Origin: a virus
Length of the DNA stretch: 26,446 nucleotides
Virus record (IMG/VR): IMGVR_UViG_3300045136_000191
Location: 1-26,446 of that record
Reading direction: 5' to 3' (one strand)
Positions within the stretch are counted from its first letter, which is position 1, and each line of letters opens with the position of its first letter. Made by a program: the position numbers and the translations under genes. Positions 1-25,178 of this stretch are shown here, piece after piece. A model generated the notes under the pieces. That model saw only the letters and a list, made by a program, of their open reading frames with translations, had not been told where the DNA came from and did not search any database.

Positions 1-335
1 GTCAACAGATAATCGGCGGACGTTTCGTTTAGGCGAGTATGCAATGTATTCAATACATTTGTGACATCGTTGTCGGAGATTGTGCCGGATGGCATAGCGG
101 TCGCGTCGGTTATAAGCATGCATATTCCTTTACCTTCGATGGCGGTAATCGCTAATTCTCGACAGCATGCCCAATCGGGATCACGCCAGGTCTGGCCGGT
201 GAAGGGATCAACAATCCAACCGCAATCCTCAAGTGCGACGATAGCTTGCGGAGAAAGCGCCAGCGGCAATCCCTCCTCGCTCGCCAGTTGCAAGATTTCA
301 GATATTCGATTGTCGGTATCTTGTGCCGTGCTCAT
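1..335 (-). CDS. Hypothetical protein, 3' end cut by window edge
   Basis: An open frame runs leftward from an ATG at 333-335 and leaves the window without a stop, giving at least 111 residues that begin MSTAQDTDNRISEILQLASE. The product looks soluble and acidic, with a tryptophan-containing patch (FTGQTWRDPDW) around residues 44-54 and no membrane segment. I recognise no family. The start is chosen as the first ATG; its Shine-Dalgarno is weak (GTGAG about 6 nt upstream). A weak promoter could lie upstream on the minus strand (TTGAAT at 392-387, 17-nt spacer, TACACG at 369-364); its -35 would fall inside the long palindrome at 384-430, which could act as operator. The gene has the same direction as the sigma/FtsK/ParB block at the other end of the window. 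Confidence 0.55.
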   Translation of the reverse strand, partial: MSTAQDTDNRISEILQLASEEGLPLALSPQAIVALEDCGWIVDPFTGQTWRDPDWACCRELAITAIEGKGICMLITDATAMPSGTISDNDVTNVLNTLHTRLNETSADYLL

Positions 336-383
336 AAAGTCTCACTTTCTAAAAACGTCGATGCGTGTACCACCCTACGCCTG

Positions 384-430
384 GCCATTCAACTTTCACT
401 GTCATCGGATGACAGTGAAAGTTGAATGGC
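384..430. repeat. Perfect 23-bp-arm palindrome (copy 1 of shared palindromic element)
   Basis: Arms 384-406 and 408-430 are exact reverse complements around a single G at 407. The inner core, 396-418 (TCACTGTCATC, G, GATGACAGTGA), occurs again at 26071-26093, but the outer parts of the arms differ completely between the copies while staying self-complementary. It lies between the minus-strand gene at 1-335 and the structured RNA region at 431-550. It could be an operator, a partition-type site or an inserted palindromic element; sequence alone does not decide. Confidence 0.9.
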
Positions 431-550
431 TCCGGTCTGCGCCGCAGCGGAGGAAAAAGGGGAAATAGAGAAGTGTAGCGCTCAGAATTAGGAGGATGCT
501 GCGACGCAGACCGGAATGATGAGCGACTGCGTTAAACAGTCGCTCTTTTT
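431..550 (+). ncRNA. Candidate structured small RNA ending in a terminator
   Basis: A 17-bp long-range stem pairs 431-447 with 499-515 with one mismatch. It encloses about 50 nt of purine-rich, apparently unpaired sequence, and is followed at once by the terminator hairpin at 521-550. No convincing gene fits inside; an 8-codon frame after an AGGAGG at 490-495 is very short. The loop contains AGCGGAGGAAAA (446-457), which recurs in the second short-RNA candidate at 5941-5952. I see no good plus-strand promoter upstream, so this may instead be the 3' end of a transcript entering from the left. The structure is seen; the RNA itself is inferred. Confidence 0.45.
521..550 (+). terminator. Rho-independent terminator upstream of int
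   Basis: A 9-bp perfect stem (GAGCGACTG, 521-529, with CAGTCGCTC, 537-545) has a 7-nt loop and is followed by five T at 546-550. It insulates the integrase gene from plus-strand transcription from the left. The int promoter begins immediately after it. Confidence 0.85.
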
Positions 551-551
551 G

Positions 552-560
552 TGCTACACT
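552..560 (+). promoter_or_regulatory. Extended -10 promoter for integrase
   Basis: TG at 552-553 followed by C and TACACT at 555-560 makes an extended -10 element. The -35 region (TTAAAC, 532-537, 17-nt spacing) is poor and lies within the preceding terminator hairpin. The layout TG-C-TANNNT recurs at 2622, 5880, 13252 and, on the minus strand, 13201. Confidence 0.5.
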
Positions 561-634
561 GGAGTTGCGATGACATCAGTGCGGACACCTGTACAAGAAG
601 TTTTCCATTTCACAACTACAACAGGAGTCCGATC

Positions 635-1522
635 ATGCTGTATAGTGAAGCAATTTCGTTATATCGCACGTATTTACGTTCACGTCGTCGCGCAACCAAG
701 ACGCTGGCGTGGTACGCAGAGCAATTTGCAGCGTTTGCGTCCTGGCGTGGCAAGGATGGCGATCTGCCAGATGTCGAGGAAATCGAGCGATTTCTCGCCG
801 ATTGCCACGACGCCGGCCTGTCGCCGTCCACCGTCCACGCCCGCTATCGTGCGCTCAAGGCGCTGTTCCGGTTTCTGGAAAAGCGCCGGAAGATCGACCG
901 TGACGCCAATCCGATCTTGATGCTGGAAGCGCCGTCTGTGCCGAAGACGGTACGCCCATACGTCACGTTGCCGGAGCTGCGCCAGTTGCTGGCGACGTGC
1001 GGTGATGACTGGATCGGGCAACGAGATCGGCTGATCCTGTTGTTGCTGTTTTTCAGTGGGCTGCGATTGAGTGAGATTGCCGCGCTCCAGGTTGGTGATC
1101 TCGATGCGGCGGCGCTGGAGGTGGTGGTGCGACGTGGTAAAGGCGACAAGGCGCGCGTGGTGCCAATGTCGCCGGAAGTGCGCCCGGCATTGACGGCGTA
1201 CCTGTTCCAGCGGCCGGAGCATCGTGATGAGTTGTGGCTCGCTTCCGATGGCTACGGCGGCGTGACCGGTGCGCTCAAGCCTGAAGGCATCCGCCAGATG
1301 ATCTTCCGCCGGTGCAAGCGTGCCGGGTTGCCGAAATTCGGGCCACATCGCTTCCGTCATGGCTTTGCGATGTGGATGCTCAATAACGGCGCGCGGCTGA
1401 CGACGGTCGCCACGGCGATGGGTCACAGCGACCCGGCGATCACGGCGTCCGTCTATGCGCACACGACGGCGAGCACAGTGCGCAGCGAGTACGATGCGGC
1501 GCTGGCGACCCTGACCAGATGA
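635..1522 (+). CDS. int: Tyrosine-family site-specific integrase
   Basis: This 295-residue protein is a phage integrase that catalyses recombination between attP and the host att site. Residues 1-95 form a SAM-like core-binding domain (YRTYLRSRRRATKTLAWY, then SPSTVHARYRALKALFRFL). The catalytic domain shows the family's residues: R144 (SGLRLSEIAAL), a lysine near 169 (RRGKGDK), H238 and R241 (HRFRH), H264 (MGHSDP) and the nucleophile Y274 (SVYAH). I chose ATG 635 because AGGAG at 623-627 precedes it at good spacing; an upstream GTG at 551 in the same frame lies inside the promoter. It reads toward the attachment site 65 nt downstream, the usual int-attP arrangement. Length and motifs are complete, so it should be active. 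Confidence 0.96.
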   Translation: MLYSEAISLYRTYLRSRRRATKTLAWYAEQFAAFASWRGKDGDLPDVEEIERFLADCHDAGLSPSTVHARYRALKALFRFLEKRRKIDRDANPILMLEAPSVPKTVRPYVTLPELRQLLATCGDDWIGQRDRLILLLLFFSGLRLSEIAALQVGDLDAAALEVVVRRGKGDKARVVPMSPEVRPALTAYLFQRPEHRDELWLASDGYGGVTGALKPEGIRQMIFRRCKRAGLPKFGPHRFRHGFAMWMLNNGARLTTVATAMGHSDPAITASVYAHTTASTVRSEYDAALATLTR

Positions 1523-1587
1523 TTGTAGATCAGGTGTTCTCCAGAGAGAAAAACGGCTGATCTGCACCCTGTCAACGGTTTGATCCG

Positions 1588-1634
<47 letters not shown>

Positions 1635-1635
1635 T

Positions 1636-1717
1636 CACCTTACAGCCCTTATGCGGTTGTAAAGGTGCGTTTCTAGGGCGTCCGATCCGTCGTTGTTCAG
1701 GTGGGCGGGTCGGACGC
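1636..1717. repeat. Inverted repeats beside the att core
   Basis: Two hairpins follow the tRNA fragment. 1636-1667 pairs CACCTTACAGCC with GGTTGTAAAGGTG with one bulge and one wobble. 1678-1689 pairs with 1706-1717 over 12 bp with one wobble. A further 7-bp repeat (AGATCAG 1527-1533, CTGATCT 1557-1563) lies between int and the core. They may be arm-type integrase or excisionase sites, or the int terminator, although no T-run follows. The rest of 1523-1723 shows no gene. Confidence 0.5.
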
Positions 1718-1723
1718 TCGGAA

Positions 1724-1921
1724 TCACGATTGCAATACAGTCCAGTCCAGCTTGATGCCCTTGCGGTTGGCATAGTCGATCACATGTTGCTTCTCGACTC
1801 TGCGCCAGCCGTCGTCGGTGATTCGCACACTCGGCAATTCACCATTATCGATCAGGCGTCTGACTGTATCTGGACTCACGCCGAAAAGCTTTGCTATTTC
1901 GGGTGGTGTCAGATACTCCAT
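1724..1921 (-). CDS. xis: Excisionase-like helix-turn-helix protein
   Basis: This 65-residue protein is almost all one MerR/excisionase-type winged helix: LTPPEIAKLFGVSPDTVRRL at residues 4-23, then the wing (ELPSVRITDDGWRRVEKQHV). It matches the HTH_17 family of small excisionases and DNA-binding regulators in size and pattern. An AAGGAG stands about 7 nt before the ATG. It is transcribed leftward toward attP and convergently with int, the common layout for an integration-excision switch. A strong promoter at 1966-1994 drives it. It could instead be a simple transcription regulator; location favours an excisionase role. Confidence 0.72.
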   Translation of the reverse strand: MEYLTPPEIAKLFGVSPDTVRRLIDNGELPSVRITDDGWRRVEKQHVIDYANRKGIKLDWTVLQS

Positions 1922-1965
1922 TGTGATCTCCTTATGTGTACCACATTTGCTAATTTTACGAGATT

Positions 1966-1994
1966 AGATTACACCCGATCAGGGCGATTGTCAA
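1966..1994 (-). promoter_or_regulatory. Sigma-70 promoter for xis-like gene
   Basis: On the minus strand, TTGACA (1994-1989), a 17-nt spacer and TAATCT (1971-1966) make a near-consensus promoter. The expected start near 1959 gives a leader of about 38 nt to the ATG at 1921. It is one of only two promoters here with a full TTGACA. Confidence 0.8.
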
Positions 1995-2028
1995 TCCTCA
2001 ATTGCCCGATTGCGAAAGGAATTGATCC

Positions 2029-2433
2029 ATGCCCAAACAGCAGATGATCATCCTGGAAGGCGATGGCACGTATCAGATCGAGGTCGTTGGTGAATCTCGT
2101 TACTGGGACAACCTACGCAAGCTGGCCGGTTCGTGCGAAAACAACGCTGTCGAAGTGATCAAAACCGCGTACTTGGTGCCGGAACCGCGCAATCCCAACG
2201 ATCCCAATGCCGTGCGTGTGGAGATTGACCGTCTGACTGTCGGCTATCTGCCCAGATCGGTCGCTGCTAAGCTATCGCCGCTGCTACGTGCGCGCCAGAT
2301 AGTCGCCGTGCAAGCGACAGCGCGAATTACTGCGTTCGAGGGCGCCAACAATTACAGCGTGTGGGTAGATGGCGACATTGACGAAATTCTGCATAGGTTT
2401 TCGCCAGCGCGTCCGTGGTGGCGCGTCTGGTGA
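2029..2433 (+). CDS. Stand-alone HIRAN-domain protein
   Basis: The 134-residue product has the HIRAN pattern. VVGESRYWDNLRKLAG (residues 19-34) starts the domain; LVPEPRNPNDPNAVRVEI (49-66) holds the conserved N-P-x-D-x-N-A-V stretch; VGYLPRSVAAKLSPLL (71-86) follows. HIRAN domains bind DNA, in the eukaryotic HLTF helicase single-stranded 3' ends, and stand-alone bacterial and phage forms are thought to recognise damaged or unusual DNA. The ATG has AAGGAA upstream. The last residues (SPARPWWRVW) are encoded by the left arm of a 19-bp perfect inverted repeat whose loop holds the stop codon. It lies divergent from xis, in the lysogeny and att region. Its function in this phage is unknown. Confidence 0.75.
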   Translation: MPKQQMIILEGDGTYQIEVVGESRYWDNLRKLAGSCENNAVEVIKTAYLVPEPRNPNDPNAVRVEIDRLTVGYLPRSVAAKLSPLLRARQIVAVQATARITAFEGANNYSVWVDGDIDEILHRFSPARPWWRVW

Positions 2434-2453
2434 GGCGCCACCACGGACGCGCT
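2406..2453. repeat. 19-bp perfect inverted repeat spanning the HIRAN stop codon
   Basis: Arms 2406-2424 and 2435-2453 are exact reverse complements around a 10-nt loop (2425-2434) containing the TGA at 2431-2433. As RNA this is a very stable, GC-rich hairpin, but it lacks a T-run. It may stabilise the 3' end of the mRNA or add to the two terminators that follow immediately. Confidence 0.9.
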
Positions 2454-2488
2454 CTTGGACCCGGGTCGATTGACTAGGCTTTTTTGTT
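2452..2488 (+). terminator. Terminator repeat R1
   Basis: An imperfect 7-bp stem (CCGGGTC, GATT loop, GACTAGG) is followed by six T. The 37-nt unit starting CTCTTGGACCC is repeated almost exactly at 2531-2568, 79 bp downstream. Confidence 0.65.
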
Positions 2489-2530
2489 CGATAGCCCTCA
2501 AAGCCCCACGACCACTCACCCATAACGAAA
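2488..2530 (+). other. 43-nt antisense copy of tail gene segment 18909-18951
   Basis: The reverse complement of 2488-2530 matches 18909-18951 at 42 of 43 positions; the one difference is G for C at the eleventh base. That segment encodes FVMREWSWGFEGYR in the tail-tip protein at 18367-19137. A plus-strand transcript reading through R1 would therefore carry 43 nt complementary to that tail mRNA, enclosed by two terminator hairpins. Position and identity are seen directly; an antisense role is inferred. It could equally be a recombination scar. Confidence 0.85.
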
Positions 2531-2568
2531 CTCTTGGACCCGAGTCGATTGACCCGGCTTTTTTTGTT
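2531..2568 (+). terminator. Terminator repeat R2
   Basis: This is the second copy of the R1 unit, with three substitutions and one extra T. The stem is CCGAGTC, GATT loop, GACCCGG, with one A-C mismatch and a seven-T tail. It closes the HIRAN transcription unit before the next promoter. Confidence 0.75.
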
Positions 2569-2621
2569 GCCGCAGCGCGGGAATTCCTGTCCTGCTGACG
2601 ATTCCGTAAGCAGCACATTTA

Positions 2622-2630
2622 TGCTATGAT
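2622..2630 (+). promoter_or_regulatory. Extended -10 promoter for the terminase region
   Basis: TG at 2622-2623, C, then TATGAT at 2625-2630. The -35 region (TTCCGT at 2602-2607) is poor. A start near 2637 gives a leader of about 37 nt with a strong AGGAGG before the ATG at 2674. It follows the tandem terminators, so it is probably the start of the unit running through TerL. Confidence 0.6.
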
Positions 2631-2673
2631 GTTATTGTACATAGAATCATTCGGTATGGAATGAGGAGGATCG

Positions 2674-2955
2674 ATGTCTACGAACGCGTTGCCTGGCGTG
2701 GTGTGGGTGGTTCTGATTTTGGCGCTGATCCCCGGCGTGCAGGGTGTCCTGGAGCGATTTTTCCCATCTGCGGAGTATTGGTATAGCGCTCTAATCGTGG
2801 CGGTGCTGGGAGCGATTGCGAAGGCGATTGAGGTGTGGGCGCGCCAGCAGGGGATGCAGATCGAGGTGAGCGATGGTGCTCCCACGCCGCTGGCGGCGCT
2901 GGCGGCGAGCGAGGTAGCGCCGCCGGGAAAACTATGGCGCTGGTTGTTTGGCTAA
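2674..2955 (+). CDS. Small two-helix membrane protein, holin-like
   Basis: The 93-residue product has hydrophobic segments at about residues 8-26 (GVVWVVLILALIPGVQGVL) and 37-53 (YSALIVAVLGAIAKAIE), then a polar tail. An ideal AGGAGG lies 5 nt before the ATG. Size and two membrane segments fit a holin or superinfection-exclusion protein, but no specific family is recognised. It is the first gene after the promoter at 2622 and precedes the HNH and terminase genes, an unusual site for a holin, since no endolysin is nearby. Confidence 0.6.
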   Translation: MSTNALPGVVWVVLILALIPGVQGVLERFFPSAEYWYSALIVAVLGAIAKAIEVWARQQGMQIEVSDGAPTPLAALAASEVAPPGKLWRWLFG

Positions 2956-2986
2956 TTACCTGAGCTAATGGTAGGAGTTGAATCGT

Positions 2987-3337
2987 ATGCCGACCAAAGC
3001 GCCGACGGCGTGTGTGCGACCTGGCTGCGCCGGGTTGGTACGCGCTGGCGTATGTTCGGTGTGTGGCAATCTACGCAGGCGCACGGTTGCCGAGCATGAT
3101 AAGCGGCGCGGTAGCCGCCACGAGCGCGGCTACGATGCACGATGGGAGCGGGTGCGCCGAATGCACCTGGCCAAAGAGCCGCTATGCCGAATGTGTGGTA
3201 GACCTGCCGTCCTGGTCGATCACATCACGCCGATACGCGACAACGGCGCAGTGCTCGACGATGACAACCTGCAATCCTTGTGCAGGCGATGCCATGATGC
3301 GAAGACTGCCAATGATTTGCGCAAGCGTGCCGGGTAG
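2987..3337 (+). CDS. HNH endonuclease
   Basis: The 116-residue product has an N-terminal cysteine cluster (CVRPGC then CSVCG) and a C-terminal HNH domain: CRMCG at about 68-72, LVDHITPI (the DH of the motif), DDDNLQSLCRRCHDAKT with N and the final H, and CxxC zinc ligands. Such nucleases sit directly before terminase in many HK97-like phages and work with the packaging motor in making cohesive ends. The start is ATG 2987 with GTAGGAG at 2971-2977; a TTG at 2978 in frame is less likely. A gap of about 100 nt with no recognisable feature separates it from TerS. The neighbouring terminase genes support a packaging role rather than a homing endonuclease. Confidence 0.88.
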   Translation: MPTKAPTACVRPGCAGLVRAGVCSVCGNLRRRTVAEHDKRRGSRHERGYDARWERVRRMHLAKEPLCRMCGRPAVLVDHITPIRDNGAVLDDDNLQSLCRRCHDAKTANDLRKRAG

Positions 3338-3439
3338 GGGGTGCAAATGTTGGGGAGATTGGCGCACAGTACCGGCGCCGCAGCACTGCGCACGCAAAAC
3401 CGAGTTTTCGACCAAAAGTGCATGGGAGGGAATTAGCGC

Positions 3440-3892
3440 ATGGGCGCACGTGGCCCACTACCGAGAAAGCGAACAACAGGGCAAGCTGCTACGGGTACGG
3501 GCAAACGGCGGCTGCGCAGGCTGCCGGACGATGTCGACGCAATCTTTCGGCGGCTGGTGCGAGACATTGAAAATCTGAACGCGGGGGACGCGGCGCTGAT
3601 CGAGGATATGGCGCGGTGGCTGGCGATTGCGAAGCGAGCATATGCTGACCTGCACGTCGGCGGGAAGATGGCGCTGACGGTGACGGACACGGCGCACGGC
3701 AACAAAGAGGAGAGCCGGAAAAATCCGCTCCTGATCGTGCTGCGGACGGCGAGCGAACAGCTACGCGCCAACGCCCAGCAGCTCGGCGCGTCACCAATGG
3801 CGCGCGCGCGGCTGCCTGAACGCGAACAGGAACAGCTAAGCATAGCCGATATTCTGTTCGCAGATGTCAATGCTGATCACGATGGGTTGTGA
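3440..3892 (+). CDS. terS: Terminase small subunit, P27-like
   Basis: The 150-residue protein begins MGARGPLPRKRTTGQAATG, the N-terminal signature of the P27 family of small terminase subunits. A helical region with LNAGDAALIEDMARWLAIAKRAY (about 46-68) and a conserved middle NPLLIVLRTASEQLRANAQQLG (about 95-116) follow. It recognises phage DNA and recruits the large subunit to start packaging. GGGAGGG lies about 10 nt before the ATG. Its stop overlaps the GTG start of TerL by 4 nt, indicating translational coupling. Confidence 0.88.
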   Translation: MGARGPLPRKRTTGQAATGTGKRRLRRLPDDVDAIFRRLVRDIENLNAGDAALIEDMARWLAIAKRAYADLHVGGKMALTVTDTAHGNKEESRKNPLLIVLRTASEQLRANAQQLGASPMARARLPEREQEQLSIADILFADVNADHDGL

Positions 3893-5433
3893 ATTGGTTT
3901 GACGAACGCGCCGCAACGGTGGCTGAACGATTCTTTGACCGAATGCTGGTGCACATAGAAGGCCCACTAGCCGGTAAGCCGTTCGTGTTGGAACCATGGC
4001 AGCGGGCGATCGTGCGTGAATTGTTCGGGCGGAAGGTGGGCAAGCTGCGTCAGTATCGCAAGCTCTATTTGGAAGTGCCGCGCGGAAACGGCAAAAGCAC
4101 CTTTGCGGCAGGGCTGGCGCTTTATTTGTTGTCGGTGGATGGAGAGCAATCGGCGAAGATATACAGCGCAGCGGCTGACCGGGAGCAGGCGAGCATCGTT
4201 TTTGAAACGGCGGAGAAGATGGTTAAGGCGTCGCCGTTTTTGTCAAGCCGGATCAGGACGTATCGCAATAGGACGATGGTTTACGAGGCAACGGGCAGCA
4301 AATATATTGCGCTGAGTTCCGACGCTTACACAAAGCATGGCCTTAACCCACACGGCATCGTATTTGATGAGCTACACGCACAGCCAAATCGGGAGTTGTA
4401 CGACGTGCTCAACACGGCGATGGGCAAGCGCAGCCAGCCGTTGATGATCATGATCACGACGGCTGGCTATGATCGAAATTCAATTTGCTGGCAACAGCAC
4501 GAGTACGCCCGTCAGGTGGCGGCGGGCATTATCGATGATCCGACATTCTATTCGGTGATTTATGCAGCGCCAGAAGACGCCGACTGGACCGACCCGGCTA
4601 CCTGGCGCATGGCAAATCCAAACTACGGCGTCAGCGTGCATGAGGAATTTCTGCGCCAAGAATGCGAGGTGGCAAAGGCAATACCCGCTTATCAAAACAC
4701 GTTTCGGCGTCTTTATCTGAATCAGTGGACGCAACAGGAGAGTCGCTGGATCGACATGCAGGCGTGGGATAAGTGTGCGACGGCACTGCCGGACTTGAGC
4801 GGTCGGGTATGCTATGGCGGGCTTGATTTGGCTTCGACAACGGATATTGCGGCGCTGGCGCTGGCGTTTCCTCCAAATGCGGAAGGGGAGCCGTTTTACT
4901 TGCTGCCCTTGTTCTGGATTCCTGAGGAGCGCATGATTGAACGTGAACGCCGGGATCGGGTTCCTTACTCGACCTGGGTGCGCCAGGGGCTGGTGACGGC
5001 GACGCCGGGCAATGTGATCGATTACGCCTATATCCGCCAGCAGATCAACGAGTTGGCGAAGGTGTACGACCTGCGAGAGGTGGCGTTCGATCCGTGGAAT
5101 GCTACGCAGTTGTCGGTTCAACTCCAGGACGATGGGATCAATATGATTGAGATGCGTCAGGGGTTTGCAAGCCTGAGCGGGCCGTCCAAGGAGTTTCTGC
5201 GGCTGGTGCTGGCGGGCTTGGTGGCGCATGGCGGCAACCCGGTGTTGCGCTGGATGGCGGACAATGTGGTGACGCGCCAAGACCCGGCAGGCAACGTGAA
5301 GCCGGATAAAAGCAAGAGCATGAACCGGATCGATGGGATCGTGGCGAGTGTGATGGCAATCGGGCGGGCGATGCTGGCGAACCCGAAGGCGGGACGGTCG
5401 ATCTATGAAGACCGCGGCATAATGCTGATATGA
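3889..5433 (+). CDS. terL: Terminase large subunit (packaging ATPase and nuclease)
   Basis: The 514-residue product is a full-length Terminase_1-type motor. The ATPase domain shows Walker A PRGNGKST at 64-71, Walker B GIVFDE at 156-161 and a coupling motif (MIMITTAGYD, about 186-195). The RNase H-like nuclease domain begins with GGLDLASTTD (D313) and includes FDPWNATQL and a late acidic residue in NRIDGIVASVMA (about 484). It translocates DNA into the prohead through the portal and cuts it. The GTG start overlaps the TerS stop. In typical order the portal follows directly downstream on the same strand; here two small ORFs, a promoter-RNA-terminator unit and then a reversed head module follow. 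Confidence 0.96.
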   Translation: MNWFDERAATVAERFFDRMLVHIEGPLAGKPFVLEPWQRAIVRELFGRKVGKLRQYRKLYLEVPRGNGKSTFAAGLALYLLSVDGEQSAKIYSAAADREQASIVFETAEKMVKASPFLSSRIRTYRNRTMVYEATGSKYIALSSDAYTKHGLNPHGIVFDELHAQPNRELYDVLNTAMGKRSQPLMIMITTAGYDRNSICWQQHEYARQVAAGIIDDPTFYSVIYAAPEDADWTDPATWRMANPNYGVSVHEEFLRQECEVAKAIPAYQNTFRRLYLNQWTQQESRWIDMQAWDKCATALPDLSGRVCYGGLDLASTTDIAALALAFPPNAEGEPFYLLPLFWIPEERMIERERRDRVPYSTWVRQGLVTATPGNVIDYAYIRQQINELAKVYDLREVAFDPWNATQLSVQLQDDGINMIEMRQGFASLSGPSKEFLRLVLAGLVAHGGNPVLRWMADNVVTRQDPAGNVKPDKSKSMNRIDGIVASVMAIGRAMLANPKAGRSIYEDRGIMLI

Positions 5434-5442
5434 GGTTGTGCT

Positions 5443-5733
5443 GTGTCAAGAGAGATGCTGCCGACGGAGCGGGTGGCGCTGGCAACGTGGTTGCTGGTGC
5501 AAGGACAGGCGATTACTGTGCGCCAACTTGCAAAAAGGCTGGAGATTACGCCGCGCGGGGCAAGGATGATGTTGGAGAAAATGAGCGGTGTGCTGCCGTT
5601 GACGGTGGAAGAGGGTGATGACGGCGGACTGTGGCAGATTTGTGGAAGAAATTGGGTAGATGAGCCGTGGGAAGTGGAAGTATGGCAAAATGGCGAAGAG
5701 GTGGCAGGCGGCGGTCGGCGCGGTGGGTGGTGA
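5443..5733 (+). CDS. Winged-helix DNA-binding protein
   Basis: The 96-residue product has a helix-turn-helix pattern at about residues 9-45: VALATWLLVQGQAITVRQLAKRLEI, then TPRGARMMLEKMS, which looks like a small winged helix of the kind used by transcription regulators. A variable, tryptophan-rich tail follows (GLWQICGRNW, EPWEVEVW). The GTG start is 9 nt after the terL stop, so the gene is co-transcribed. A regulator placed directly after terminase and before the 5860 promoter might control that promoter or the reversed head operon; this is inference. Confidence 0.6.
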   Translation: MSREMLPTERVALATWLLVQGQAITVRQLAKRLEITPRGARMMLEKMSGVLPLTVEEGDDGGLWQICGRNWVDEPWEVEVWQNGEEVAGGGRRGGW

Positions 5734-5739
5734 TCTGGT

Positions 5740-5874
5740 ATGATCGTGGGCCACAGGGTGACGATTCAGGGGCGGCTGTTATCGGACCCGGGCTGGCGTC
5801 GGCTGGGGTCGCAGACGATCACGGCGGAGCAGGCATTGACCAGGCTGATGGCGAGGGACTTGACAAAGCTCTGA
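5740..5874 (+). CDS. Small ORF, unknown function
   Basis: A 44-codon frame starts at an ATG 6 nt after the previous stop and ends in the middle of the 5860 promoter. The product begins MIVGHRVTIQGRLLSDPGW and ends ALTRLMARDLTKL. No family is recognised. The close spacing and continuous strand suggest a real gene; its short length keeps confidence low. The promoter's -35 element is coding sequence for its last residues. Confidence 0.42.
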   Translation: MIVGHRVTIQGRLLSDPGWRRLGSQTITAEQALTRLMARDLTKL

Positions 5875-5888
5875 TCGTTTGCTATACT
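5860..5888 (+). promoter_or_regulatory. Near-consensus sigma-70 promoter
   Basis: TTGACA at 5860-5865, a 17-nt spacer and TATACT at 5883-5888, with TG at 5880-5881 as an extended -10. This is the best plus-strand promoter in the window. It drives only about 130 nt before a strong terminator, which points to a short RNA. Confidence 0.85.
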
Positions 5889-5894
5889 ATACGC

Positions 5895-6028
5895 TGGATC
5901 AGCGTTCCGTGCATTGTGGCGCCATGCCAGCGCCCGCAGAAGCGGAGGAAAATCGGGACGCTTTGTAAAAAGGATGCCGTTTTTTTATTTGTTTAGCGCC
6001 GTGGGGTAAATCCCTGCGGCGCTTTTTT
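5895..6028 (+). ncRNA. Candidate small RNA between promoter and terminator
   Basis: The interval between the strong promoter and a strong terminator is about 134 nt. AGCGTTCCG (5901-5909) pairs with CGGGACGCT (5954-5962) with one wobble. Inside it GGCGC and GCGCC (about 5919-5935) can form a small hairpin, and AGCGGAGGAAAA at 5941-5952 repeats the loop sequence of the RNA candidate at 431-550. A possible 11-codon hydrophobic peptide (MPFFYLFSAVG) starts at 5974, so it could be a leader-peptide or small-protein mRNA instead. It lies exactly at the left border of the reversed head module. Promoter and terminator are seen; the RNA is inferred. Confidence 0.6.
5996..6028 (+). terminator. Strong Rho-independent terminator
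   Basis: An 11-bp stem (5996-6006 with 6012-6022, two G-U wobbles) closes a TAAAT loop and is followed by six T (6023-6028). It stops plus-strand transcription before the convergent minus-strand head operon. The TAA stop of the gene at 6027-6341 overlaps its T-run. Confidence 0.93.
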
Positions 6029-6341
6029 AGTCGCATTCGAGGATGGTGAAGATGTTGATGTCTGCGGCGATGTAGTGATAGAGGATAGTCGCGGCGCGGC
6101 TCAGCACGGCGATGGTCATGATGACGATCACGCCAGTGTTGATGTAGAAGAACGGCAATAATTGGCGGAAATATACCCCCAGGCTGAGATTGAAGAGCAT
6201 GAAGGCAAAGAAAACTGAGAGGCTGAAATAGAACAATGCGATAATGCGCTCACGGCGATTGTAGGCGATCAGGCCGAAGTAAAAATACGCCGGGAACATG
6301 AGGAAGTAACAGATTGCATGGATGGTTTCATCGATGCTCAT
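6027..6341 (-). CDS. Multi-spanning membrane protein, possible holin partner
   Basis: The 104-residue product has about three hydrophobic segments: 9-26 (AICYFLMFPAYFYFGLIA), 33-54 (IIALFYFSLSVFFAFMLFNLSL) and 62-82 (LPFFYINTGVIVIMTIAVLS). It overlaps the coiled-coil membrane protein upstream by 4 nt (ATGA) and is the last gene of the minus-strand head operon. No specific family is recognised. A pair consisting of a coiled-coil single-span protein and a multi-span protein resembles some phage lysis cassettes, so a holin role is possible. Confidence 0.58.
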   Translation of the reverse strand: MSIDETIHAICYFLMFPAYFYFGLIAYNRRERIIALFYFSLSVFFAFMLFNLSLGVYFRQLLPFFYINTGVIVIMTIAVLSRAATILYHYIAADINIFTILECD

Positions 6342-6631
6342 TTAATTCGCTCCAGTATATACAATCCCAGCATGAGCGCGCTGAGCGCAAAGCTGGTCAG
6401 AAATAGCCACATCTGCATTTTATTCAATGCGCCGTTCGTGTGGCGCTGATAGAAGCGCAGAAGGTATTCGAGCTGCTGTAATTCACGGCTGGCTTGCTCC
6501 ATGCGGTAGATGGCGGCCTGTGTTTCTGCATCAGGTCTCGCCAGGCTGAGCATGCGTTCGATGTCGCTGATCTGCGTTTCCAGAAAGTGGATTCTGCGCC
6601 GCACATCTGGAAAATCGTAATCGACGGCCAT
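6338..6631 (-). CDS. Coiled-coil protein with C-terminal membrane helix, XhlA-like
   Basis: From the ATG at 6631 the protein has 97 residues. Residues about 10-60 are a heptad-rich coiled coil (IHFLETQISDIERML, then MEQASRELQQLEYLLRF), and about 74-93 form one membrane helix (MWLFLTSFALSALMLGLYIL) followed by a short basic end. This layout matches the XhlA type of phage haemolysin/holin helper. The ATG at 6631 begins 7 nt after the stop of the upstream gene; a longer in-frame start at 6730 would overlap that gene heavily and is unlikely. Family assignment rests on architecture, not on sequence motifs. Confidence 0.6.
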   Translation of the reverse strand: MAVDYDFPDVRRRIHFLETQISDIERMLSLARPDAETQAAIYRMEQASRELQQLEYLLRFYQRHTNGALNKMQMWLFLTSFALSALMLGLYILERIK

Positions 6632-6638
6632 TTTGCTG

Positions 6639-6998
6639 TCAAGTGACGCGGCTTTCGCCCACCAGTTCCTCGCAGGTGAGGGTAACGAGGCGACGTCGGT
6701 TGTCGGGTTCGCCGATGGCGAGGATGGCAAAGTAGCGGCTGGCGCCTTCGATCAGCCAACGCAGTCGGCTTTTGGTGGTGAGGCTGACGCCCGCGGGCAG
6801 TGGCCAGCGCAGCGTGACTTCGTGGGCGGCGACGGGGATGACCAGCTCCTGGCGCTGGCGTTCGTTGCCGGAGATGGTGCGCACGCGGGCGCGTAGCTGA
6901 GGCGAGTCCGTCCAGGTGATGGTTTCGGCGCCGCGGTCGCTGCGTGAGGTGGTGGGCGTCTGGATGTAGACGGTATGGCGCAATTCGGCGATCTTCAT
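6639..6998 (-). CDS. Head closure / head-tail joining protein
   Basis: The 119-residue product begins MKIAELRHTVYIQTPTTSRS and contains the hallmark SPQLRARVRTISGNERQRQ and LRWLIEGASRYFAILAIGEPDNRRRLVTLTCEEL of the SPP1 gp16 / Phage_H_T_join group. It seals the head after packaging and forms the surface to which the tail attaches. Its start overlaps the upstream connector gene by 4 nt. In most siphoviruses the gp10-like gene follows directly; here that gene is at 13267 on the other strand. Confidence 0.82.
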   Translation of the reverse strand: MKIAELRHTVYIQTPTTSRSDRGAETITWTDSPQLRARVRTISGNERQRQELVIPVAAHEVTLRWPLPAGVSLTTKSRLRWLIEGASRYFAILAIGEPDNRRRLVTLTCEELVGESRVT

Positions 6999-7567
6999 GT
7001 GGCGTAGCCCCAGTGCATTTTGAGCGCATTTTGCAGGCGGCTGCGCTGCTGGTTGGCGGTGGTGGAAATTGCCTCACGATTCTCGTAGTCAACGGCGACC
7101 AGCCCCAGGATCAGGCGCTTGTAATCGGAGGGTACGTCGTCGGCAAGACCGTAGCCTGCGACGTAGCGCACTCGGATCGGGGCGTGGCTGCGCAGTGCGA
7201 CGTCGGGCCAGCTTTTGCCCTGTGCGGACGTGAGAATGGGCGGCGTGAGGTCGGCGATCAACTGGTAGTCGGTGTCGGGAATGGTGACGGTCGTTCCGTC
7301 GTCGGTGACGTAAGTGACGCTGATGATCGATTGCACCGGCGGATATTCCAGGCGGATGACGCCATCGGCGGGCCAAACCGAAAGTACCATTTCCCGGGTC
7401 TGGGTGATGAAGCTGCGCGCGGCCAGCATCTGCGCTTCGAGCGTGGCAGCCTCGATCAATTGAGTGATCAGTGCGTCGTCGGCGCTGTGGTCAATCAGCA
7501 GTGTGCTCTTGGCTTCGGCAAGCGTGACCGGCGTGACGGCGGGCGGCGTAATGATGTTGCTTGGCAT
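6995..7567 (-). CDS. Head-tail connector, gp6/gp15-like adaptor
   Basis: The 190-residue product has the pattern of the HK97 gp6-like connector: an N-terminal helical part (VTLAEAKSTLLIDHSADDALITQLIEAATLEAQ, about 15-47), a beta-rich middle (LEYPPVQSIISVTYVTDDGTTV, then Y-Q-L) and a C-terminal RVRYVAGYGLADDVPSDYKRLILGLVAVDYENRE. These form a ring under the portal. It lies 21 nt after the glycosyltransferase-like gene and overlaps the head-closure gene. Confidence 0.88.
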   Translation of the reverse strand: MPSNIITPPAVTPVTLAEAKSTLLIDHSADDALITQLIEAATLEAQMLAARSFITQTREMVLSVWPADGVIRLEYPPVQSIISVTYVTDDGTTVTIPDTDYQLIADLTPPILTSAQGKSWPDVALRSHAPIRVRYVAGYGLADDVPSDYKRLILGLVAVDYENREAISTTANQQRSRLQNALKMHWGYAT

Positions 7568-7588
7568 ATGTCCATTCCTTTGGGTCGA

Positions 7589-8458
7589 TCATTTGGTGCG
7601 CTTCCTCCGCTGCGCCGGGACGGTTGCCTGTTCGGGCGATTCGATGACGGCGCGCTCGACGGCGGGTTCTGGTTCGGGTTCGGTAGGGCGGATGCGCACG
7701 TAGCCAGCGCGTTCCAGATCATAGGCTTCGGCCATTGTGACGGTGTAGCGCATTCCAGCCGTGAGCCGCATCGGTTTGCCGTCGATGAAGACGGTGACGT
7801 CTTCGAGCGCCTCGACGCGCATCATGGTGGTTGTGTCGTCGTAGGGCATGAGCAATTGTCCTTCTGTGTTGAAATGCCCGCAGGGAATGTCGAAGCGGCC
7901 GTAGGCGATGACGCCAGCGCGCAGACAATCCATTGCGAATTGAATATCGCCAGTCGGATTGCTGCCGTTGCCGCTGTGGAGCGGGATGCGCTCCAGCACA
8001 TTGCGATGGATGAGCGTGCAACCCCAGCCGCAGCCGGAGATGCGTCCGACGCCAGCCTGCCGATAGCGGGCCAGCTCACGCGGATAGAGTGTGAGCGACA
8101 TGCCAAGGCTGTTTTCGCCGCAGTACTGCCAGGTGCTGAGCGAATAGTTGCCGTGGCGCAGCACGTATGGTGCATAGACCACGCCGGCGCCTGTGGTGTC
8201 GGCGAGCTTCTGTAGAGCGTCGGGCGGGAGCACCATGTCATGCTCGACGGTGACGAGTGCGTCGTAGCCGCCGGCAAGCGCAAGGCGTTGGGCGCGCTGA
8301 TATTTCGCCAGCACGTTGCGATGGTCTGGCGGTGGGAATGGGTCATCGGCATCGATGACCCATTCCCACTCGTGCGTGGTCTGCTGCGCTTCGATGGACG
8401 CTCTGCACTGTGGGTGCAGGGCGTCATCGTACGTTGGCGTGTAGACCAAAATCTTCAT
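7589..8458 (-). CDS. Glycosyltransferase-like protein inside the head operon
   Basis: The 289-residue product begins MKILVYTPTYDDALHPQC, like family 2-type GT-A folds. It has DADDPFPPPDHRN near 37-49, VEHDMVLPPDAL near 70-81 (EHD in the place of the metal-binding DxD), VGRISGCGWGCTLIHR near 139-154 and GDIQFAMDCLRAG near 169-181. Residues 200-289 add a small beta-rich part (TVFIDGKPMRLTAGMRYTV) and a polar, glutamate-proline-rich tail. Its start overlaps the capsid stop by 1 nt. The site between capsid and connector suggests that it modifies capsid or another virion protein, but donor and acceptor are unknown. Confidence 0.72.
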   Translation of the reverse strand: MKILVYTPTYDDALHPQCRASIEAQQTTHEWEWVIDADDPFPPPDHRNVLAKYQRAQRLALAGGYDALVTVEHDMVLPPDALQKLADTTGAGVVYAPYVLRHGNYSLSTWQYCGENSLGMSLTLYPRELARYRQAGVGRISGCGWGCTLIHRNVLERIPLHSGNGSNPTGDIQFAMDCLRAGVIAYGRFDIPCGHFNTEGQLLMPYDDTTTMMRVEALEDVTVFIDGKPMRLTAGMRYTVTMAEAYDLERAGYVRIRPTEPEPEPAVERAVIESPEQATVPAQRRKRTK

Positions 8459-9681
8459 CAGGCAGTCGGATGGCGGCCGTACAGGATCGCTTCTGGCTGC
8501 AGCACCTTGTACGCGATGCGCGTGTAGTAGTGCAGCACGACTTGGCCGTAGCGTGCGCGGCTGTATGGATCGCGCAGGAAGGTCAGCGCGGTCGAGCGAC
8601 GCCCCATGTAGCCAAAATTGCCGAAGAGAATCGATTTGTTACCGGCGCCAACGGCAGGCATGGTTTCGTCCTCGTTCCAAAGCGGATATTTCCACAACGT
8701 GGCGCCGGTGGGGCCGACGACTGGGGCGCCCGCTGGCGTTTCGGCGAAGAGGAAATCACTGCCCTGCAGTTTGCGGATGGCGCCTTCTGTGGCGCGGCGC
8801 ATGACCCATTGCGCAGACGGCGAATGGCGTCCCTTCAGCGCGTAGACAAGCGTCGGCACATCGGCGGCGCTGACAGTAGCAGCGGCGGCCAGCGTGACGC
8901 TGGTGCCATTGGTAAGCGCCTCGGTGATGAGCGCATTGTTATGCGTCAGGCCGAGGGCCTCGCCGACGTAGAAGTTGAGGAAGGTCATCAGATTTGATCC
9001 TTCGTCGTACATCAGTTCGTCGGACAGTTCAATGGCTTTGGTGAATTTGACCAGCGTCATCTGCGCGCGGCCAATTTCAGGCGCATCGCGGTCAGACAGA
9101 GAGGCCTCGTTGGTTGACACGAAAACATTGGTTGTTCCGGCTTGCACGGGTACGTTGAGCGTAGTGCCGCCTTCGGGTGCGAAGGGCATGACACCCAGTC
9201 GTTCGGCCAGCGCGATGCTGTTGGCTTTGGCGATGATGCCAGTGTAGTGCGCGGTGGGTACCAGATAGCCGCCGTCGGCTGGCGTGGTGATGTTCATGTC
9301 GGTATCGTTACTGGCGCGCAGTTCGGCGCGCATCTGCGCATCCATCTCACGGATAGCGCCCTCGTCGCCCCGCACGTAGAGGCGCACGGCTCGCAGTTCT
9401 GCCTGTTTGCGGTCGTCGCCAGCGTAGCGCAGCACTACGGGCGCCTGTGGCTGTGGCTGTGGCGCTGGCTGTGTACCTGGTTGCGAGCGCAGATCAATTG
9501 TGAGGCGGTCGATCTCTTCTTGCCGGTCAATCTGCGTTTTGAGCGCCTCGATTTGTGCTTTGAGCGCATCGTAGGCAGCCTGCTGTGTTTCGTCTAGCTG
9601 CGCGTCGCCAAAGCTGTCGTTGAGTTTTCGCAACTCATCAATCAGTTCGGCGCGTTTGCGGCGAAGTTCAAGAATGTCCAT
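8458..9681 (-). CDS. HK97-fold major capsid protein
   Basis: The 407-residue product has an N-terminal coiled-coil scaffold (delta) domain at about 1-65 (RRKRAELIDELRKLND, then a long helix to IDRLTIDLRS) and a proline/glutamine-rich linker, probably removed by the protease. The HK97 fold follows from about 115: GGYLVPTAHYTGIIAKANS (N-arm and start of E-loop), VSTNEASLSDRDAPEIGRAQM, a P-domain helix SDELMYDEGSNLMTFLNFYVGEAL, and an A-domain ending in YYTRIAYKVLQPEAIL. It assembles the icosahedral head. Residues 1-112 are encoded by the duplicated segment and are identical to the N-terminus of the chimeric ORF at 10278-10871. The protein itself is intact. Confidence 0.95.
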   Translation of the reverse strand: MDILELRRKRAELIDELRKLNDSFGDAQLDETQQAAYDALKAQIEALKTQIDRQEEIDRLTIDLRSQPGTQPAPQPQPQAPVVLRYAGDDRKQAELRAVRLYVRGDEGAIREMDAQMRAELRASNDTDMNITTPADGGYLVPTAHYTGIIAKANSIALAERLGVMPFAPEGGTTLNVPVQAGTTNVFVSTNEASLSDRDAPEIGRAQMTLVKFTKAIELSDELMYDEGSNLMTFLNFYVGEALGLTHNNALITEALTNGTSVTLAAAATVSAADVPTLVYALKGRHSPSAQWVMRRATEGAIRKLQGSDFLFAETPAGAPVVGPTGATLWKYPLWNEDETMPAVGAGNKSILFGNFGYMGRRSTALTFLRDPYSRARYGQVVLHYYTRIAYKVLQPEAILYGRHPTA

Positions 9682-9682
9682 G

Positions 9683-10294
9683 TCAATCCTCCATTGACAA
9701 AATTTCGATTGTGCGATGGCGCGCAGCCGCCCGGCTCCGCGCCTGTATCTCAGCAGCCTCCTGGCTGTCTAATTCTTTCTGACGTGCCATCTCCAGGGTG
9801 CGAGCAGCGACGATGGTGGCCTGATATGCAGGAAACGTGACGACGCTCACGTCGTAGAGCGAAAGGTTGCGCAGACGACGTAGACGCTGACCGTTTTCGG
9901 TGGTCCAGGTCTCGCCGCCCTTGCGCGTGCGGAAGGCGAAGCTCATCTGGTTCACGTCGCCGCGCTCGACCAGCATGTATACGTCGTTGGCGTAGGTGGT
10001 TGGCGGCAGAATGACAGCCATGCGCAACCCGTGCGCGTCTTCGGTCAGGGTGAGCGTGCCGTTGGTGGTGCGCCCCAGCACTAGGTTGGGATCGTGGTTG
10101 AACAGTGCGCGCACGTCGGGCGTCTCGGCGAGGGCTTCGCTGAATGCGCCAGGCTCGATCACCTCACGAAAGCCGCCGAGGTCCTCGGATAGGCTGTTAA
10201 AGACAACGGCGTAGCCCTCAAGCGTGCGCACTTCGCCATCGGCGGCGGCGCGCAGATTGACGGTGACGCAGCGGCGTTCAATTTCGTTGTTCAT
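9683..10294 (-). CDS. Prohead protease, copy A (next to capsid)
   Basis: The 203-residue product is an HK97 gp4 / peptidase U35-type protease that cleaves the capsid delta domain during maturation. Family features are TLEGYAVVFNSLSEDLGGFRE (about 24-44), VIEPGAF (45-51), ALFNHDPNLVLGR with the likely catalytic H67 (63-75), QMSFAF with the likely nucleophile S118, and LYDVSVVTFPAY (146-157). Its C-terminal tail is charged and helical. It ends 1 nt before the capsid start. Because of the duplication its upstream neighbour is the chimeric ORF, whose 3' end overlaps its start by 17 nt, exactly as portal overlaps copy B. Confidence 0.93.
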   Translation of the reverse strand: MNNEIERRCVTVNLRAAADGEVRTLEGYAVVFNSLSEDLGGFREVIEPGAFSEALAETPDVRALFNHDPNLVLGRTTNGTLTLTEDAHGLRMAVILPPTTYANDVYMLVERGDVNQMSFAFRTRKGGETWTTENGQRLRRLRNLSLYDVSVVTFPAYQATIVAARTLEMARQKELDSQEAAEIQARSRAAARHRTIEILSMED

Positions 10295-10871
10295 CGATCA
10301 ACTCCTTGACGGCTAACTGGCAGGCGGTGGCTACCCACTCGTTGACGTTCAGTTCGGTTGGTTGTACGGCGCGCAGTGGCGACAGCATGGCGTCGCCAGC
10401 TTGCCGCCATTCGTGCATCTGTTCTGCGCACCACTCGGACAGCCGTTGGCGACCGCCGGTGCGCAGGGCTTTAGCGCCGCCCTGCCGGACATCATTGGCG
10501 ATGCGGGCGTGCAGGCGGTTGCGCACGTCGGCGATCTCACGGATAGCGCCCTCGTCGCCCCGCACGTAGAGGCGCACGGCTCGCAGTTCTGCCTGTTTGC
10601 GGTCGTCGCCAGCGTAGCGCAGCACTACGGGCGCCTGTGGCTGTGGCTGTGGCGCTGGCTGTGTACCTGGTTGCGAGCGCAGATCAATTGTGAGGCGGTC
10701 GATCTCTTCTTGCCGGTCAATCTGCGTTTTGAGCGCCTCGATTTGTGCTTTGAGCGCATCGTAGGCAGCCTGCTGTGTTTCGTCTAGCTGCGCGTCGCCA
10801 AAGCTGTCGTTGAGTTTTCGCAACTCATCAATCAGTTCGGCGCGTTTGCGGCGAAGTTCAAGAATGTCCAT
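10278..10871 (-). CDS. Chimeric ORF: capsid N-terminus fused to portal C-terminus
   Basis: This 197-codon frame is a by-product of the tandem duplication. Residues 1-112 are identical to the capsid scaffold domain plus linker (MDILELRRKRAELIDEL to GAIRE), and about residues 113-197 are identical to portal from about residue 427 (ADVRNRLHARIAND to KELIDEQRN). The join falls at 10534-10536 and happens to stay in frame. It keeps the capsid start signals, so it could be translated. It could make a free scaffold domain carrying a portal tail, or simply be junk. It is not a recognised gene type. Confidence 0.8.
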   Translation of the reverse strand: MDILELRRKRAELIDELRKLNDSFGDAQLDETQQAAYDALKAQIEALKTQIDRQEEIDRLTIDLRSQPGTQPAPQPQPQAPVVLRYAGDDRKQAELRAVRLYVRGDEGAIREIADVRNRLHARIANDVRQGGAKALRTGGRQRLSEWCAEQMHEWRQAGDAMLSPLRAVQPTELNVNEWVATACQLAVKELIDEQRN

Positions 10872-10872
10872 G

Positions 10873-11484
10873 TCAATCCTCCATTGACAAAATTTCGATT
10901 GTGCGATGGCGCGCAGCCGCCCGGCTCCGCGCCTGTATCTCAGCAGCCTCCTGGCTGTCTAATTCTTTCTGACGTGCCATCTCCAGGGTGCGAGCAGCGA
11001 CGATGGTGGCCTGATATGCAGGAAACGTGACGACGCTCACGTCGTAGAGCGAAAGGTTGCGCAGACGACGTAGACGCTGACCGTTTTCGGTGGTCCAGGT
11101 CTCGCCGCCCTTGCGCGTGCGGAAGGCGAAGCTCATCTGGTTCACGTCGCCGCGCTCGACCAGCATGTATACGTCGTTGGCGTAGGTGGTTGGCGGCAGA
11201 ATGACAGCCATGCGCAACCCGTGCGCGTCTTCGGTCAGGGTGAGCGTGCCGTTGGTGGTGCGCCCCAGCACTAGGTTGGGATCGTGGTTGAACAGTGCGC
11301 GCACGTCGGGCGTCTCGGCGAGGGCTTCGCTGAATGCGCCAGGCTCGATCACCTCACGAAAGCCGCCGAGGTCCTCGGATAGGCTGTTAAAGACAACGGC
11401 GTAGCCCTCAAGCGTGCGCACTTCGCCATCGGCGGCGGCGCGCAGATTGACGGTGACGCAGCGGCGTTCAATTTCGTTGTTCAT
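10873..11484 (-). CDS. Prohead protease, copy B (next to portal)
   Basis: This copy is identical at the amino-acid level to copy A over all 203 residues, with the same H67 and S118 motifs. It overlaps the 3' end of portal by 17 nt, the arrangement expected in the ancestral operon. It is followed by the chimeric ORF instead of by full capsid. Both copies look functional, so gene dosage of the maturation protease would be doubled. Confidence 0.93.
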   Translation of the reverse strand: MNNEIERRCVTVNLRAAADGEVRTLEGYAVVFNSLSEDLGGFREVIEPGAFSEALAETPDVRALFNHDPNLVLGRTTNGTLTLTEDAHGLRMAVILPPTTYANDVYMLVERGDVNQMSFAFRTRKGGETWTTENGQRLRRLRNLSLYDVSVVTFPAYQATIVAARTLEMARQKELDSQEAAEIQARSRAAARHRTIEILSMED

Positions 11485-18367: not shown

Positions 18368-19137
18368 TGTCGATACGCGTAACGCAGGCCGGGGCGCTGG
18401 TGCGTCTGGTGGCCAATCGGAAGCTCATGGTCACGCAGGCGGGCGTGCTGGTGCGCGTCAGCCTGGTGCAGATTCGGGTGACGCAGGTGGGCGTGCTGGT
18501 GCGCGTCAGCCTGGTGCAGATTCGGGTGACGCAGGCGGGCGTGCTGGTGCGCTGCGCGCCAAAACTACCAACGCCGACCGAAAAAAGCTTGCTGATAACG
18601 GCTGCCACGCTCTACCGGGCGCCGCTTGGGGAGCCGGTGCCGGACGAGAATATTGGGTATGGCGAGGCGTGGGGCGGCAACTGGGTGCAACTGGGATATA
18701 CGCTGGAGCCGCTGCGCTTCTCGCTGGAGAGTGACCTGGTGCGGGTGCGAGTGGAGCAACTGCTGTCGGCGGTGCGCATTTTCCGCAGACAGGAAGGGCT
18801 TGTCATCCGCACGACGTTGGCGGAACTGACCAGCGACAATCTGGCGCTGGCGCTCGACGGTGCAATCACGGTCTTCGACAATTGTCAGATCATCGAAGCG
18901 GGCGGCGATTTCGTTATGCGTGAGTGGTCGTGGGGCTTTGAGGGCTATCGATTGAATAGCCGGGGCGATAAAGTGGCCGTGCGCGTTTTCGTGCATCGGG
19001 GAGTGGCGGTGCTGGATCAAACAATCACAATGGGCAGGGCGACGGCGACGGGCATACCGCTGCGCATTGAGGCGATTGCCGACATCACCAGGCCGCCGGG
19101 CAAACAGTTGATGGAAAGTCACATCGTAAGGACATAA
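18367..19137 (+). CDS. Repeat domain fused to a major-tail-protein paralogue
   Basis: Residues 1-68 hold short beta repeats of 16 residues (VTQAGVLVRVSLVQIR) with nearly identical DNA copies. Residues about 74-256 are clearly paralogous to the tail tube protein at 14170-14772, sharing ATLYRAPLGEPVPDE, WGGNWVQLGYTLEPL, NLALALDGAIT, WSWGFEGYR, GIPLRIEAI and PPGKQL; about half the residues match by eye. It may form a ring continuing the tube toward the tip, with the repeats projecting outward. The codons for FVMREWSWGFEGYR (18909-18951) are copied in antisense at 2488-2530. The gene is linked to both neighbours by TAATG overlaps. Confidence 0.82.
   Translation: MSIRVTQAGALVRLVANRKLMVTQAGVLVRVSLVQIRVTQVGVLVRVSLVQIRVTQAGVLVRCAPKLPTPTEKSLLITAATLYRAPLGEPVPDENIGYGEAWGGNWVQLGYTLEPLRFSLESDLVRVRVEQLLSAVRIFRRQEGLVIRTTLAELTSDNLALALDGAITVFDNCQIIEAGGDFVMREWSWGFEGYRLNSRGDKVAVRVFVHRGVAVLDQTITMGRATATGIPLRIEAIADITRPPGKQLMESHIVRT
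18430..18556 (+). repeat. In-frame 48-bp direct repeats
   Basis: Two full units (18430-18477 and 18478-18525) and a partial third (18526-18556) differ at only a few positions. A diverged unit starts at 18379. Each full unit encodes VTQ[AV]GVLVRVSLVQIR. The repeat number could vary between strains. Confidence 0.9.
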
Positions 19138-22349: not shown

Positions 22350-23339
<990 letters not shown>

Positions 23340-23377
23340 TACTCCTCTTCCTCTAATTTCCATTGTGATCTCTTGAT

Positions 23378-25054: not shown

Positions 25055-25072
25055 TGGTATTCTGTTAATAAA

Positions 25073-25102
25073 CAAAAAACGGATTGCTGTCGCTGCAATC
25101 CG
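25073..25102 (-). terminator. Terminator/attenuator before the FtsK-like gene
   Basis: On the minus strand CGGATTGC (25102-25095) pairs with GCAATCCG (25087-25080) over 8 bp with a 7-nt loop, followed by six T (25079-25074). It lies about 20 nt before the FtsK-like ATG and inside the ParB-to-FtsK transcription unit, so it could attenuate expression of the downstream genes. Confidence 0.75.
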
Positions 25103-25178
25103 CCTTGTATAATAAGCGTCGGATGCGGCGACATCGCATCCGTGTGCTCCGGCTGGTGCGCAGACCATCAGCCGGAGC
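25073..25178 (-). ncRNA. Three-hairpin RNA element (leader or small RNA)
   Basis: Three perfect hairpins stand in a row on the minus strand: 25178-25146 (10 bp), 25142-25120 (8 bp) and the terminator hairpin 25102-25080 (8 bp) with its T-run. The 25055-25218 gap has no good gene. The layout resembles a small RNA or a regulated leader that ends in a terminator; neither a riboswitch class nor a promoter is recognised. The alternative is that the region is coding for a longer FtsK-like N-terminus. Confidence 0.45.

Follow-up and report, generated by a model that had tools for sequence, protein, structure and literature searches.

A palindrome within a phage ParB/StrR-like gene as the probable operator of the protein that the gene encodes

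A palindrome carried inside a ParB/StrR-like gene of a phage is very probably the cognate double-stranded DNA operator, of a parS-like kind, of the ParB/KorB/StrR-type protein which that gene encodes; this reading comes from comparison of the site and the protein across relatives. With less assurance, we also think it rather likely that this protein belongs to a large family of winged ParB/StrR-like proteins, in phages and plasmids, whose operator lies within the gene for the protein itself, in the linker that separates the codons of helix and wing, with inner arms that correspond to the helix and outer hexamers that correspond to the wing. The stretch of DNA analysed, referred to here as the window, is the whole of positions 1 to 26,446 of the IMG/VR virus record IMGVR_UViG_3300045136_000191 (26,446 nt).

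The 23-bp near-palindrome, TCACTGTCATC-G-GATGACAGTGA, is common to positions 384-430 and 26065-26099 of the window, and its core, TCACTGTCATCGGATGACAGTGA, is the same letter for letter at 396-418 and 26071-26093. No such core match arose in 100 dinucleotide shuffles of the window, with up to three mismatches permitted. In copy 1 (384-430) the arms 384-406 and 408-430 pair perfectly over 23 bp, and in copy 2 (26065-26099) the arms 26065-26081 and 26083-26099 pair perfectly over 17 bp, in both cases around one unpaired base. Copy 1 is intergenic, with a small leftward ORF (335-3) on one side and the integrase gene (635-1522) on the other; its core hexamers are TCACTG (396-401) and CAGTGA (413-418). 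Copy 2 is intragenic. It lies inside the ParB-like gene (25431-26444, minus strand), where its core encodes SLSSDDSE on the minus strand, and it falls in linker codons with the HTH on one side and a predicted beta-hairpin wing on the other. A sequence-only reading of the window had described the identical cores, the perfectly paired arms of 23 and 17 bp and the position of the second copy within a ParB-like gene, all of which are borne out here. It had also drawn attention to flanks that differ between the copies and are nevertheless self-complementary. These flanks are real, but the outer 12 bp of copy 1 and 6 bp of copy 2 are not the general signal; judged from the relatives described below, that signal is the inner arms together with the outer hexamers of the core, which vary among relatives and remain palindromic. 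The 6-bp outer arms of copy 2 are also found in the parB gene of the related phage contig L008, and may be inherited.

The window has other repeated sequences. Two more strong palindromes, at 2406-2453 (22-bp arms, 95%) and 8332-8369 (17-bp perfect arms), are unrelated in sequence to the core, and a 43-bp dispersed repeat with 98% identity occurs at 2488-2530 and at 18909-18951, the latter in a tail gene. Long identical blocks are found among the neighbouring capsid, protease and portal ORFs (8458-11484), where 9683-10294 and 10873-11484 encode the same 203-aa protein and 10278-10871 starts like 8458-9681; these blocks represent either a tandem duplication or an assembly fault. A full sigma-70-type factor gene (22350-23363) adjoins an FtsK/SpoIIIE-like gene (23378-25186).

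The ParB/StrR-like gene, whose 5' end lies beyond the window, matches PHROG 1033, 'ParB-like partition protein'. A ParB N-terminal NTP-binding fold followed by an HTH is indicated by this match, by an AlphaFold model of residues 1-239 of the L008 protein (mean pLDDT 83; a ParB-type N domain and then the HTH) and by structure comparison of that model with KorB (Z 12.7) and Noc (Z 9.9), both over model residues 11-168. The ParB-parS structure 6t1f gave a Z of 8.9, and weak profile matches were obtained to ParB (7o0n, 8e-6) and Spo0J (1vz0, 3e-5). No Pfam family scored above its cut-off for either the window or the L008 protein. In the L008 model a recognition helix at 153-163 is followed by a beta-hairpin of strands 169-173 and 179-183 with KHG at the turn, that is, a winged HTH (pLDDT 75, 87 and 71 for the blocks spanning 161-190), and the palindrome codons lie between the recognition helix and the wing. 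In the window gene, by alignment, the predicted recognition helix corresponds to the codons of SHNFVNEIRR (26094-26123, minus strand), and the predicted wing to the codons of RRYTTKHGTTAIMNT and its neighbours (26019-26069, minus strand). The F of SHNFVNEIRR and the KHG at the turn of the predicted wing are, respectively, the residue that tracks the inner arm and the motif that tracks the outer pentamer in the comparisons that follow.

The position of the palindrome is held across relatives while its sequence is not. Two genes on two Candidatus Chlorohelix plasmids were seen by eye to have different 11-1-11 palindromes, TATCTGGAAAC-G-GTTTCCAGATA and TATCTTCGACA-A-TGTCGAAGATA, in the same codons. 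Relatives were gathered from the viral_contigs collection and near-identical genes were removed at 90% identity for a set of 80 genes or at 85% for sets of 114 and 151. In the 80 non-redundant genes the palindromes fell in two linker bins, and no other 30-nt bin in any of these genes had at least 10 of 11 pairs. Among 114 genes, 92 had at least 9, 67 at least 10 and 32 all 11 of 11 pairs. The corresponding numbers for 151 genes, after a fresh set was added, were 115, 86 and 42, counts that retain L027, whose score of 9 reflects GC-rich low complexity. Synonymous shuffles (n=3020) that preserved the amino acids and each gene's codon usage reached these levels in 5.5%, 0.76% and 0.07% of cases. 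The hexamer starts in codon frame 1, 0 or 2 in 46, 29 and 10 of 85 genes, and because all three frames are used, the palindrome belongs to the DNA and not to the peptide. The spacer between the hexamers is N11 in 59 of the 85, N10 in 20 and N12-N15 in 6, a variation looser than would be expected of a rigid dimer. It also counts against an operator reading that the linker palindrome is absent in 36 of the 151 relatives, among them all three anchorable Pseudomonadota chromosomal relatives, and in all four actinobacterial StrR-family genes examined.

The site also changes with the protein. The outer pentamer tracks the wing motif, with KHG accompanied by ..ACT in 44 cases, RNG by.ATCT in 34 and no discordant case, in a code that was first spotted by eye and with outer classes that were defined after looking. 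In a stricter automatic register the wing/outer counts were 41, 3, 1 and 26 (Fisher 5e-15), where the four apparent exceptions (L102, L106, L185 and L202) show the expected hexamer by eye. On a tree built from the N-terminal part of the protein, with HTH and linker excluded, 22 switches were inferred for the wing class and 22 for the outer class, and independent pairs on supported branches were concordant in seven of seven cases (p = 0.016). The inner triplet tracks residue 3 of the predicted recognition helix, with AAC accompanying F in 35 of 78 arms and GAA accompanying T in 29 of 54, an association that is not significant after tree correction. When classes were counted, F never occurred with GAA nor T with AC, and all four combinations of wing and helix were present with the expected mosaic.

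These rules were written down before they were applied to a fresh set of relatives from the same database, in which 126 of 164 loci were duplicates and were removed, and one (L248) was unanchorable, leaving 37 genes. At least 9 of 11 pairs were present in 23 of the 37, nine of these 23 being without a wing class under the rules. The outer rule held in four of four genes for KHG-ACT, in five of five classifiable genes for RNG-TCT (one more was unclassifiable) and in four of four for ADGR-ACT. For the inner rule, T was found with GAA in four genes, with another triplet in two and with AC in none, and F with AC in five and with GAA in none. An additional wing class, F(I/T)H(H/P)KTG with outer ATACT, was noticed afterwards in L188, L365, L374 and L381. 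This covariation of the site with the parts of the protein predicted to read DNA suggests a protein-DNA code. The sequence-only reading had proposed a dimer-binding site for the ParB-like protein, acting in autoregulation or partition, and the comparison across 151 relatives strongly supports this proposal.

The nearest likeness in the form of the site is to the StrR regulators. The operator of these regulators, known for StrR of Streptomyces griseus and also for CmlR, is given for StrR as GTTCGActG(N)11CagTcGAAc in PMC8306873 and as GTTCGACTGN11CAGTCGAAC in PMC8406272. In this form, GTTCGACTG-N11-CAGTCGAAC, it has the same hexamer-N11-hexamer layout and ACTG-N11-CAGT frame as the window core (TCACTG-N11-CAGTGA). 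The proteins are alike in having a ParB-like N domain plus an HTH, and tblastn found similarity to genes annotated as streptomycin biosynthesis regulator in NZ_CP071720 (5e-45) and in Streptomyces NZ_CP107901 (6e-4), so that both the protein and the site resemble those of this family. Among the StrR-family genes fetched the wing is GRDGR or SDGR, and the StrR operator reads CGACTG; the ADGR-wing phage genes L053, L110 and L258 have outer CGACT. There are also differences. The operators described for StrR sit in the promoters of other genes, whereas the phage site is inside the gene, the N11 of the phage site is itself palindromic, and the four actinobacterial relatives lack the linker palindrome. 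The best structural match is KorB of plasmid RK2, a ParB-like repressor, matched over the NTP fold plus HTH; the hairpin after the HTH lies outside the aligned range.

The integrase gene downstream of copy 1 (635-1522, plus strand) encodes a tyrosine recombinase (PF00589). The related phage contig L008 (also G006) has a ParB-like gene 95% identical to that of the window over 512 nt. L008 has five sites, one in parB, with one arm changed, and four around the contig ends upstream of int, with matching changes in the two arms (TCACTGTAATC-C-GATTACAGTGA). Variant-core copies in the region matching copy 1 number four in this contig and three in L036. The array units of L008 include GAAGTTCGTCGC, which in its own parB stands before the core; this suggests that copying took place from one of these locations to the other. 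Sites upstream of int are unusual, being those of the window, with two sites in all, and of L008, with five. Because copy 1 is near int and has perfect arms, we considered that it might be a telomere or an integrase attachment site. This seems unlikely, since int relatives at 83% and 55% identity are without the palindrome, so that integrase family can do without it. Between copy 1 and int lies an inverted repeat with the left arm TCCGGTCTGCGCCGCAGC (431-448) and the right arm GCTGCGACGCAGACCGGA (498-515), which has corresponding arms in L008 and is kept, as TCCGGTCTGCG.../...CGCAGACCGGA, in these palindrome-free int relatives (L041 and L042); it is a candidate for the integrase arm or attachment sites. 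In a scan of 300-700 a terminator-like hairpin was found at 521-545, along with a single weak promoter-like site, about as many as expected. In phage G399, whose int is 83% identical and has no palindrome upstream, a gene matches the L008 ParB in its C-terminal part only and has another N-terminal part. This would be a natural swap, and it agrees with the pairing of site and protein.

As we see the operator working, a homodimer would bind the palindrome, its two recognition helices contacting the inner arms and its two wings the outer hexamers. Since the site is in linker codons of the protein's own gene, the gene would carry its own operator, and the protein may load or form a roadblock there, giving self-limitation. 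In lineages with ParA, such as L008, a partition complex may nucleate on the in-gene site. A second cognate site would be copy 1, which lies upstream of int, with the four-site array as its counterpart in the L008 contig. Across 24 phage contigs, most of them fetched nearly whole, every one had its own site inside the gene. Further cognate sites that could form a regulon were essentially absent from these nearly whole or partly fetched contigs, the only extra sites being a tandem copy in the gene of L126 and two weak matches in L075. A scan of 8-kb loci for copies of their own site likewise found an exact second copy only in L126. In most genomes the ParB-like gene thus appears to be the sole strong target, consistent with either a loading site (parS) or self-limitation.

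What the protein does at this site could be explained in two ways, each of which we hold tentatively. The first is that the site is a partition centromere, an intragenic parS on which the ParB-like protein loads as a clamp and, with ParA, segregates the phage as a plasmid, the int-side sites enlarging the centromere. The fold is closest to KorB, Noc and ParB, the L008 contig (parB of 573 aa) has a ParA-family ATPase gene overlapping the start of parB together with five sites, four of them around its ends, and an in-gene site that is usually the only one is what a single parS could be. In Bacillus subtilis, parS is found inside the ParB-like gene spo0J. An intragenic parS also has a precedent in SCP2 parT, the nearest one, where PMC12260392 places parS within the coding sequence of its binding protein, a ParT without a CTPase domain. 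The likeness is thus a centromere-type site in the coding sequence of the binding protein; the difference is that here a whole family keeps the site in one place and varies its sequence along with the protein. However, ParA relatives turned up within 4 kb of only three of 114 genes, and in the window itself the expected position of parA lies past the end. The second explanation, to which we give about the same tentative weight, is that the site is an autoregulatory operator through which the protein blocks transcription of its own gene, with no role in partition. The mostly missing ParA and the in-gene sites of the 24 contigs, with extras only in L126 and L075, are consistent with this, although intragenic operators are less direct blocks to transcription than promoter operators, and the extra sites in the window and L008 are near int and not at the parB promoter. 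A survey of the ParB fold in phages (PMC12704722) does not use the word palindrome in its main text, and in a search of open journal papers no description emerged of an intragenic site that is shared by a family and tracks the protein.

It is improbable that a structured nucleic acid (an mRNA hairpin, or a single-stranded DNA hairpin or cruciform) has been selected instead of a protein site. Such an element would account for inner arms that vary with pairing kept and for spacers of 10 to 15, but a hairpin would not tie the outer class to the wing or the inner class to the helix residue. On the sense strand there are 9 G-T against 24 A-C mismatches among 1012 pairs, and this lack of a G-T excess disfavours the sense-strand mRNA hairpin that the earlier reading had allowed for.

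That reading had also named, as evidence that would count against it, numerous copies without any relation to ParB-like genes, and this is not what we saw. Three stretches of genome_contigs, from a Zoogloeaceae MAG, Aminobacter sp. J41 and a Phycisphaerales MAG, contain the exact core, as do two of viral_contigs, one of which (L007) is the window's own phage, matching window 1-9119 at 100%. The Aminobacter copy occupies the corresponding codons of a decayed member of the ParB-like family. The exact cores outside ParB-like genes, which do speak against the operator reading, are those of the Zoogloeaceae MAG (L003), the Phycisphaerales MAG (L005) and the second viral stretch (L006), for none of which an accompanying ParB-like gene was found. 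Within two mismatches, one of 392 Planctomycetota genomes had the core, and this was one already found with it. These few stretches led us to reject a host repeat family. BLAST of copy 1 gave no match among phages and, among plasmids, only weak matches at the E limit.

Some of these places have features of their own. The Zoogloeaceae contig has two sites about 20 nt apart at 513-580, TCACTGTCATCTGATGACAGTGA and TCACTTGCAACGATTACAAGTGA, and in L006 (1270-1390) the exact core is flanked by copies of another hairpin repeat, ATGTTCCCGAAAGGAACAA. In L005 (1783-1829) the core is near the start of an ORF reading MSKPHVRSSLSSDDSE, which resembles a fragment of the ParB-like linker. In L037 a near-identical core, ACACTGTCATCGGATGACAGTGT, lies in the portal gene (10313-10335), and the contig's own ParB-like gene has a different inner arm, which likewise speaks against that reading.

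Rickettsia palindromic elements are mobile palindromic repeats that insert into tolerant loops, and a repeat of this kind, suggested by exact or near-identical cores at unrelated places such as the phage portal-gene loop, is the least probable explanation here, because dispersed copies were not found (usually one per genome in the 24 contigs and two in the window), a single Planctomycetota genome carried the core within two mismatches, and the sequence of the site varies among genes along with the protein. The earlier proposal of an element that copies its own flanks in inverted form is likewise not supported as a general explanation.

If the palindrome is the operator of the protein that its gene encodes, the match of inner arms to helix and of outer hexamers to wing would make protein and site one transferable lock-and-key cassette. 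Specificity, and hence phage incompatibility or immunity, could then diversify without loss of self-recognition, and the recognition code would be legible from sequence alone. To find the target of an uncharacterised DNA-binding protein normally takes an experiment. If a gene names its target itself, as appears to be the case here, the operators of many phage ParB/StrR-like proteins may be readable at once. The helix-wing code is testable by exchange of one residue or motif, and it offers a testable account of divergence in partition or immunity specificity. It would also connect the StrR regulators of antibiotic clusters with the ParB-like proteins of phages, for which 'partition protein' is often the sole annotation.
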